Below, piece after piece: positions 15,731-20,395 of a stretch of DNA of 43,321 bases; positions within the stretch are counted from its first letter, which is position 1; the number at the start of each line of letters is the position of its first letter. The notes under the pieces are model-generated. The model did no database searches, was not told where the DNA came from, and saw only the letters and a program-made list of their open reading frames with translations. Source of the stretch: a virus; IMG/VR virus record IMGVR_UViG_3300009177_000016, positions 1 to 43,321 of that record; one strand, written 5' to 3'. The position numbers and the translations under genes were made by a program.

Positions 15731-16432
15731 ATGAAGACGCTCATCATCGGCAACAGTCACACGCACGCTCTTGAGCTGGCCGCATCCGGCATCAAGGATG
15801 CGCGGTTCAAGGTGTTTCGTCTGGGCAACAAGGCGGCTGTCGACGTAGCCAGCGCTGCCATTGCGATGTTGGGTGAGGACGACACCCTGGTCATGTCCTT
15901 CGGCGGCGTAATGCACAACCACGTCAGCTTGCTCCGGCATCGCGAGCCGTTCGACGTTCTGGCAGGAGACGAAGAAGCGAACGACCTGCCGATCGTCACG
16001 CAGTCAATGCTGCGGCACGCCTTCGCTCACCCCACATGGTGTCAGCGCGGTAAGATAGAGGGTTTCAAGGCCAAGACTGGGGCGCGCGTGGTTCACCTTG
16101 CGACCCCGCCGCCGATGGCAGATCACGAATTCATCATGCAACAGAGGATTTACTACAGGGGCGTCTCGTTCGCCGAGCATGGCCTGAACCCGGCATCTTT
16201 CCGGCTGAAGATATGGGAAATCGAGATGCAGACGCTTGCCAAGGTCTGCGAGGAGTGCGGCGTGGGCTTCCTGTACCCACCGGAACAGGCTCGGACTGCT
16301 GAAGGCTATCTGGCGAGGGATTGCTACGCCGATGACGCGGCCCATGCGAATGCGCGATATGGGCGCCTCGTCCTCGAGCAACTGGACGCTGATGTCCGCT
16401 CTGCTGTTCCGCGGGAAATGGCACTGGCCTAG
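15731..16432 (+). CDS. SGNH/GDSL-type hydrolase (probable esterase)
   Basis: The 233-residue protein starts MKTLIIGNSHTHALE, where GNSH takes the place of the block I nucleophile motif of SGNH hydrolases, and ends with DDAAHAN, matching the D-x-x-H block V. Central block II and III residues are less clear. ATG 15731 was preferred to the upstream TTG at 15692. Such enzymes remove acetyl or acyl groups from carbohydrates, so it could modify host surface sugar together with the tailspike. It is the last late gene, convergent with the leftward operon. Confidence 0.65.
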   Translation: MKTLIIGNSHTHALELAASGIKDARFKVFRLGNKAAVDVASAAIAMLGEDDTLVMSFGGVMHNHVSLLRHREPFDVLAGDEEANDLPIVTQSMLRHAFAHPTWCQRGKIEGFKAKTGARVVHLATPPPMADHEFIMQQRIYYRGVSFAEHGLNPASFRLKIWEIEMQTLAKVCEECGVGFLYPPEQARTAEGYLARDCYADDAAHANARYGRLVLEQLDADVRSAVPREMALA

Positions 16433-16460
16433 ATCAGGCGCGCGCTGCGTTGAAGTAGGG
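16433..16460. repeat. Repeat R2 (ATCAGGCGCGC element)
   Basis: Second copy of the element seen at 15654. It starts one base after the SGNH gene stop and lies beside the tRNA-like element. R2 and R3 sit on either side of that element, about 150 bases apart, as integrase arm-type sites would around an attachment core; this is only one reading. Confidence 0.5.
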
Positions 16461-16543
16461 TGGCGGCGCTCTATCTGAGCTACGGCCGCACGGGCAACCG
16501 GTTGGTTTCGAACCAACGACCTCCGCCGAGCGGCAATCCTACC
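16455..16543 (-). ncRNA. Circularly permuted tRNA-like element
   Basis: Reading leftward, a tRNA 3' half comes first: GGCGG (16527-16523, as anticodon-stem 3' strand), variable AGGTC, T-arm GTTGG-TTCGAAA-CCAAC (16517-16501), acceptor CGGTTGC (16500-16494) and C. After three more bases comes a 5' half: acceptor GCGGCCG (16489-16483), TA, D-stem GCTC/GAGC, G, then CCGCC (16466-16462). The acceptor halves form 7 bp (two G-U) and GGCGG/CCGCC form 5 bp. GTAGG/CCTAC extends the open end. The D-loop (AGATA) lacks G18-G19 and no anticodon is defined. An attachment core derived from a host tRNA 3' end is the main alternative. Confidence 0.5.
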
Positions 16544-16582
16544 AGAACTTGAGTTGGCTTCAAGACGCGACCCGATAAGTAG

Positions 16583-16606
16583 ATCAGTCGCGCATTGCGT
16601 TGAGGG
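16583..16606. repeat. Repeat R3 (diverged ATCAGTCGCGC copy)
   Basis: A third, diverged copy of R1 and R2 covers the stop codon of the small membrane-protein gene. The match to R2 extends over about 25 bases (ATCAG-x-CGCGC then TGCGTTGA). Confidence 0.4.
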
Positions 16607-16781
16607 AGAGACACGCGATTATCCCGGCAACCGTGAACACTCCGGTGCACATGACCATAGCACAAAAGATCCATTCAGCGCGGGCATCGAATGCCAACGC
16701 ATAGAATACCAGCAACAGGCAAAGGACGCCGGCCGCGAGACATACGTGGAAAGATATGGCTTCAATTCTGCTGGCGTTCAT
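16584..16781 (-). CDS. Small two-segment membrane protein
   Basis: The 65-residue product consists mainly of two hydrophobic helices (VCLAAGVLCLLLVFYALAF and IFCAMVMCTGVFTVAGIIAC) joined by a short polar loop. No Shine-Dalgarno site is clear before ATG 16781. It is the last gene of the leftward cluster, separated by 193 bases with no convincing gene (16782-16974). A role in the lysogen envelope or exclusion is possible but unsupported. Confidence 0.5.
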   Translation of the reverse strand: MNASRIEAISFHVCLAAGVLCLLLVFYALAFDARAEWIFCAMVMCTGVFTVAGIIACLSLNAMRD

Positions 16782-16969
16782 GGGCGGAAACTTGCGTTGA
16801 AAGAGAAGCTTCAGCGGCGAAGGAGGCCTTCAGCTCACACGAGGCAGCCTCATCCCCTACACCGGTCTTAGCGCCATCGCCTGATCAGGAACCGCCCACA
16901 CCGGAGGAGCATGACGGGTCGATGCGTATGATTGGGAGCCGCCGCAGCCCGACCTCCATACCACAAATC

Positions 16970-19270: not shown

Positions 19271-20395
19271 TTACTTCAATAGCTTAGCTTTAGGTGAGCC
19301 TGAAGGTTCGCCATCCGGTTCGCCGCCCACAACTTTGAGGCGAGGGCGGAGACGATTGCTGGCTTTGCCAAGCGCTGATTTGGCCATGCGCATCTGTTCG
19401 GCCCCGCGGGAATAGAGTTCGGCGTGGGCGATAGAGGAGTGACCAAGCGTGTCCATCAGCTCGCGCGTCGTCGCGCCCTCTTCGGCCAGGATCTTGCCCA
19501 GCGTCTTCCGCAGCCCGTGCAGCGTGCAACCCTTGAGCCCGGCCGCCTTCGTCCACGCCATGAAGTTGTTGGTGAGCGTGCCGACCGCTCGAGGCGTACC
19601 CCGGGTCGTACCCAATACGTAATCGCCTTGACGAGGCATCGCGTCGAGGGCGTCACGCAGGGGCGGAAGAATGGTTAGCACAAGATGCTTGCCGGTCTTC
19701 TGCTGCGTGTGAGGGAACGTTTCTCCTTCAAAGTCAGCCCATTTGAACGTCACCAGATCGCCACGACGGGGGCCGCTGTACAAGGCGCAAGCGTAGGCCG
19801 TGCGAGCGATCGTCCCAAGTGGCCAGCGGGATTCGTACTTCTCGCGCTCTTCGTCGGTCCATGCCCTGTGTCCGTCCGACTCTGGCCGATATTTCAGACG
19901 GTGTGTCGGGTCGACTTCAATCCATTCCTCGTCCAGAGCCACCAGGATCATCTTGCGCAGCACCACGAGCGCGTCATAGGCGGCGTGCGGAGTTTCGGAC
20001 ATGCCGCCCAGCAACGCCTTGACGTGGCGGCGCCTGATGTCAGTGACAAGCACATCGCCATAGGGCATCCCGTTCGCCAATTCCTTGGCCAAGAGGCGCT
20101 CTGCGCGCTCAATGTACATAGTTTTTGATGACTGCCCGAGCTTCTGCCAATCGAGGTTGTCGCGAGCCGTGGCAAGCCGCCATGCTGCCTTGAGCGTACG
20201 CGGGAGAGCCTGGTTGGGGTGGCGGATTACCTTGCCCGCAGCCGGCCTGCCATTCAGGGCGTTGTTATAGGCGGCTTCGAATGCAGGATCTCCGGGCCGG
20301 CCGGGAAGTGCCCGCGTGATCTTGCCGCGTCGATATCGCCAGCGCTCCTTGCCATGCCGATCATTGTAGGGCGAAGCGAAGGGCGGGCGTTCCAT
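19271..20395 (-). CDS. int: Tyrosine integrase
   Basis: The 374-residue protein is a phage-type tyrosine recombinase that would integrate the genome into, and excise it from, the host chromosome. The catalytic set is visible: Arg in GPRRGDL (about 205), Lys in QKTGKH, H-x-x-R in LHGLRKT, LGHSS and the nucleophile Tyr in AELYSR (about 328). The N-terminal half contains an SAM-like core-binding domain. The gene follows an excisionase-like gene by 9 bases. The attachment site is not proven; the tRNA-like element at 16.5 kb is one candidate. Confidence 0.93.
   Translation of the reverse strand: MERPPFASPYNDRHGKERWRYRRGKITRALPGRPGDPAFEAAYNNALNGRPAAGKVIRHPNQALPRTLKAAWRLATARDNLDWQKLGQSSKTMYIERAERLLAKELANGMPYGDVLVTDIRRRHVKALLGGMSETPHAAYDALVVLRKMILVALDEEWIEVDPTHRLKYRPESDGHRAWTDEEREKYESRWPLGTIARTAYACALYSGPRRGDLVTFKWADFEGETFPHTQQKTGKHLVLTILPPLRDALDAMPRQGDYVLGTTRGTPRAVGTLTNNFMAWTKAAGLKGCTLHGLRKTLGKILAEEGATTRELMDTLGHSSIAHAELYSRGAEQMRMAKSALGKASNRLRPRLKVVGGEPDGEPSGSPKAKLLK

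Follow-up and report, generated by a model that had tools for sequence, protein, structure and literature searches.

What is the element on the minus strand at positions 16543 to 16455 of a 43,321-nucleotide phage record (the whole of which was analysed and is called the window here), in which the two halves of a tRNA seem to have changed places: a tRNA gene, the scar of one, or an RNA of another kind? YrlA-type bacterial Y RNAs mimic tRNA and normally accompany the ring protein Ro60. The element is very probably a phage-borne small non-coding RNA of this type (YrlA, tRNA-like Y RNA), and is thus a variant of a known RNA type, not a new kind of RNA. Ordinary in kind but unusual in detail, it can be described as an orphan tRNA mimic of the YrlA type, whose partner and function we infer.

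On the minus strand, the T arm and the 3' acceptor half come first, followed by the 5' acceptor half and the D arm, and the element reads GGTAGGATTGCCGCTC-GGCGG-AGGTC-GTTGG-TTCGAAA-CCAAC-CGGTTGC-CCGT-GCGGCCG-TA-GCTC-AGATA-GAGC-G-CCGCC-AC-CCTAC. The T arm (GTTGG-TTCGAAA-CCAAC, 16501–16517), whose helix is 99.5% paired in the relatives, is followed by the 3' strand of the acceptor stem (CGGTTGC, 16494–16500), which forms seven of seven pairs, two of them G-U, with the 5' strand placed second (GCGGCCG, 16483–16489), the hairpin being closed by the loop CCGT (16490–16493). Homologous pairs of the acceptor helix are 96.1% paired in the relatives, with double-sided changes at five of six pairs, and the closing loops are short in many of them too (e.g., GAAA, TTCG, and GCAA). 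The D arm (GCTC-AGATA-GAGC, 16468–16480) has a five-nucleotide loop without G18-G19, a size also seen in the phage contigs L248, L253, and L272 and in Tahibacter (locus L312). GGCGG (16523–16527) and CCGCC (16462–16466) pair as an anticodon-like stem, beside which lies an A-G mismatch at a position that is unpaired in 25 of the 38 relatives as well. The outer or foot helix, assigned by complementarity between GTAGG (16538–16542) and CCTAC (16455–16459), is the only candidate for the long stem that joins the 5' and 3' ends in YrlA-type RNAs; it is the weak point of the structure, and its five pairs with an asymmetric interior loop of 10 and 2 nucleotides can have arisen by chance. The first-pass annotation, made from the letters, had described the permuted order of the halves, these stems, the CCGT separator, a D loop devoid of G18-G19 and the lack of a readable anticodon, all of which we find in place. 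Its reading of a C at position 73 as reminiscent of tRNA-His finds no support, this position being part of the closing loop.

The permuted pairing is far beyond chance, because a covariance model trained on 38 YrlA cores from phages and hosts, the window element being left out (model R1), gives the core at 16462–16527 (minus strand) 58 bits (E = 3.2e-15, filters off), the next-best place in the window reaching 11 bits; the search with a permuted model that had been proposed as a check was hence run with independent relatives. Among 300 Markov surrogates of the window, a four-stem arrangement of any kind occurred in four, with no more than 16 Watson-Crick pairs versus 19 in the element, which together with the R1 score bears out the earlier view that chance pairing is unlikely. 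The 38-core alignment itself shows covariation in the permuted helices, with double-sided changes at 12 pairs; 92.8% of its cells are paired, a share that falls to 67.6% in shuffles and to 44% or less when the alignment is slid. Minimum-free-energy folding was also considered as evidence and set aside as uninformative: the permuted fold has −30.7 kcal/mol versus −35.2 for the minimum, so that plain folding energy does not favour it, and a Ro60-linked relative is likewise unremarkable (z = −0.48).

The R1 score alone is not proof, because junctions between tandem tRNAs, the false positives of this model, reach 57 bits; no tRNA flanks the window element. Such junctions, which mimic a permuted tRNA at 44–57 bits with the YrlA model in the loci L353 (1999–2089), L354 (2002–2107), and L355 (2002–2106), form a false-positive class to be screened out. 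Tandem tRNAs also made up most of what an earlier, broad DNA pattern retrieved. When viral contigs were scanned by pattern, dozens of permuted tRNA-like elements emerged, none of them overlapping two tRNA genes; in many, the acceptor loop is short. The likeness to these junctions, and the presence of a tyrosine integrase gene (19271–20395) in the phage, would fit a locus made of the fused remains of two tRNA genes (one contributing its 3' half and the gene after it the 5' half), or an attachment site derived from a host tRNA. We regard this as very improbable, given that no continuation into an anticodon loop or a missing half is present on either side, that the stem halves pair with each other (7/7 and 5/5), and that 2.7 kb separate the element from the integrase gene. 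A perfect match of the 3' half to a host tRNA had been named as the mark of a simple attachment site; the best matches in a plasmid collection, which may not include the actual host, showed 88–93% identity over 28–34 bases, none of them perfect, and those that were opened turned out to be tRNA 3' halves, agreeing at no more than 26 of 28 bases. As for a functional tRNA gene, ARAGORN called neither tRNA nor tmRNA in the window and cmscan returned no tRNA match at E = 1, i.e., there is no full cloverleaf with an anticodon, and this reading was rejected; as had been suggested, a tRNA mimic with a small closing loop is likelier than a decoding tRNA. The halves do stand in the same order as in the permuted tRNA genes of some algae and archaea, whose transcripts are circularised and spliced to a decoding tRNA, but the element has no anticodon loop, no G18-G19 in the D loop, and no CCA, and bacteria are not known to have the tRNA-splicing endonuclease used for permuted tRNAs, which leaves this option a vanishingly small chance. 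A tmRNA was rejected too, no tRNA-like domain with a tag frame being called by ARAGORN: the two-piece (permuted) tmRNA also has its 3' acceptor half before its 5' half, but no tag reading frame was seen in the window element, and its full 4-bp D stem and anticodon-like stem set it apart.

YrlA (RF02553) is the top Rfam match of the element, at 29.7 bits, below the gathering cut-off of 69; this family was matched by all 50 phage records scanned (G011–G060), and none of them attained the cut-off. A match to the snoRNA sR32 (E = 0.19) was taken as chance. Statistical membership of the YrlA core is directly established, as is the permuted architecture, the circularly permuted tRNA-like domain (T arm, acceptor hairpin, and D arm) being recognised by both the R1 score and inspection of the stems. 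The same succession of T arm, closed acceptor hairpin, D arm, and end-joining stem is found in Salmonella YrlA (PDB 6CU1, as cited in PMC8394870; RF02553), from which the window element differs in its low score, in the absence of a Ro60 gene and of the foot signature UUACUUC, and in its five-nucleotide D loop without GG. YrlA carries a tRNA-like domain and binds Rsr and PNPase: Rsr/Ro60 sits on the basal stem and PNPase on the tRNA-like head, which is also a substrate for modification by TruB and DusA (PMC8394870). The first-pass annotation knew of no bacteriophage element of this type, a statement that has to be corrected, as Y RNAs have already been described in phages (PMC12282133, PMC7765460), and YrlA-type RNAs are carried, often beside Ro60, by dozens of phage contigs and by Caulobacter phage CcrColossus.

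Among phage records, matches over at least 80% of the core were found only in CcrColossus (JX100810, locus L351), the best of them with 74.6% identity over 88% of the core. They belong to a tandem set of RNAs that lies upstream of its TROVE-like gene at a distance of about 400 bp, and three RNAs of this set score 29.9–42.3 with the Rfam YrlA model, the lowest being level with the window element. CcrColossus differs by this tandem arrangement upstream of a TROVE gene and by conserved GGUGGCGUAG...CUUC and GUUCCCC flanks. The annotated tRNA-Gln of CcrColossus (L351 2635–2702; JX100810 109217–109284) overlaps a YrlA-like element of the tandem array and is probably a misannotation, since ARAGORN does not call it. 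When the short-D-loop pattern was searched in GTDB genomes, one further case was found, a chromosomal RNA of Tahibacter caeni (L312) with 41.7 bits to Rfam YrlA. It shares with the window element the GCGGAGGTC...CCGC stem, the GCGGAGGTC / GAGCNCCGC junction, and the five-nucleotide D loop, but is chromosomal, has a shorter acceptor hairpin (CGG/CCG), and is located in what looks like an RtcA RNA-repair locus (rtcA was recognised on reading its protein and not through a family search). In the Tahibacter caeni genome, Ro60 is matched as well, though weakly.

The record that carries the element is that of a 43-kb P22-like temperate phage, by its portal, coat, head-closure, and Erf-like families and its integrase gene, and the recurrence of 123 bp at both ends suggests that the genome is complete. 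On one side of the RNA a plus-strand ORF ends at 16432, and on the other a 65-amino-acid ORF on the minus strand ends at 16584. The RNA is flanked by two direct repeats of 29 nucleotides that are 83% identical, one at 16430–16458, overlapping the 3' strand of the foot helix, and the other at 16580–16608, reaching into the end of the minus-strand ORF. The two are spaced 150 nucleotides apart; no such pair was seen in 100 shuffles at up to three mismatches, and the repeats may mark the route by which a cassette was acquired. In the same region, the word YTCAACGCA occurs three times within 360 bases, always on the minus strand (16446–16454, 16596–16604, and 16793–16801), a count equalled across the whole window in 7 of 100 shuffles. 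Phage records held no nucleotide relatives of the first 22 kb of the window, and viral contigs no relatives of two neighbouring proteins. The element was absent from integrase relatives (43–48% identity) and from ten prophage-like stretches of Hyphomicrobiales found by the portal protein; because these relatives are devoid of the RNA in the stretches covered, it looks like an accessory element. In an attempt to assign a host, portal identity to Hyphomicrobiales was only 36–41%, the integrase relatives included Alphaproteobacteria, and two Mesorhizobium genomes and one Sphingobium genome gave no match above the likely tRNA background.

Regarding the usual protein partner, a match to PF05731, the Ro60 (TROVE) family, at E = 0.001 or better occurs in 32 of the 50 phage records that carry such RNAs (31 exceed the PF05731 cut-off), and an iterated phage Ro60 profile retrieved a divergent relative in six more. 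In the window, neither PF05731 nor this profile detects a Ro60 gene (best E = 0.12). The foot signature UUACUUC is present in 19 of 32 Ro60-positive and 2 of 15 Ro60-negative phage records (Fisher p = 0.004, indicative only because the motif was picked with the sequences in view and the negative records may include fragments), and in none of the six divergent-Ro60 records. UUACUUC and UUGUUC-like motifs are absent from the foot of the window element, in a motif test that does not extend to divergent feet. Ro60 likewise went undetected in the short-D-loop contigs L248, L253, L267, L272, and L279, some of which may be fragments or carry an unrecognised Ro60, and in L183/L358 and L365, whose elements share GCGGAGGTC. 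Three phage-like contigs without detected Ro60 have tandem pairs of permuted tRNA-like RNAs (L248 3886–4104, L272 848–1066, and L279 3448–3666), with an ORF that by eye resembles a vWA-domain protein 1.3–1.6 kb away. What is unusual in the window is thus the combination of no detectable Ro60, no UUACUUC, and a five-base D loop without G18-G19; L248, L272, and L253 are other apparently Ro60-less short-D-loop copies.

By analogy with known YrlA, we infer that the minus strand would be transcribed into a small YrlA-type RNA that folds in the cell, benefits the phage, and acts through its head, with host Ro60 or alone. The head would imitate the elbow of a tRNA, the T arm being stacked on the short CCGT-closed acceptor hairpin and joined by the D arm, and the chain ends would exit through the anticodon-like stem; such an RNA could be neither aminoacylated nor used in decoding. 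The RNA would probably serve to capture host proteins with an affinity for tRNA-like RNA, such as PNPase or tRNA-modifying enzymes, either with host Ro60 held on the foot stem or alone as a tRNA decoy.

These two modes appear about equally likely, and each is put forward tentatively. That an orphan RNA could serve during infection as a decoy for host tRNA-binding enzymes or tRNA-targeting nucleases, a role already raised for YrlA by the authors of PMC7790460, is consistent with the lack of a Ro60 gene in a record suggested to be complete, with the other Ro60-less records listed above, and with the skew of UUACUUC toward Ro60-positive records. Yet several of those Ro60-less records are perhaps incomplete or have an unrecognised Ro60, the divergent-Ro60 records do without UUACUUC too, and the loss of G18-G19 weakens the very elbow that a decoy would need. 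Alternatively, the RNA might borrow host Ro60 and redirect the host Ro60-PNPase machine, just as the basal stem of known YrlA tethers Rsr while the head binds PNPase (PMC8394870); the co-occurrence in Tahibacter of a YrlA in an RNA-repair locus and a match to Ro60 is in line with this, but the element has no recognisable Ro60-binding signature, and the Mesorhizobium and Sphingobium genomes speak against it. Possible but rather unlikely is a decaying, non-functional relic, the head of an acquired Y RNA whose foot and Ro60 were since lost: G18-G19, the foot signature, and Ro60 are all missing, none of the relatives examined has the element, and the diverged repeats on both sides look as if it had been inserted. 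Against decay, which should have broken some of them, the four stems are intact, the acceptor stem stays closed through its two G-U pairs, and the invariant T-loop and D-stem residues are kept. More speculative than either functional mode is a whole subclass of phage RNAs that retain the YrlA head only, having shed Ro60 and its binding foot to become free-standing decoys against host enzymes or tRNA-cleaving defences.

The locus, a YrlA-type RNA in a small temperate phage that has no detectable Ro60, is a definite example on which one can test whether a Y RNA's tRNA-like head functions without this protein. More broadly, the 50 phage records, of which none passes the Rfam cut-off and 32 match Ro60, suggest that phages carry YrlA RNAs far more often than this cut-off shows.
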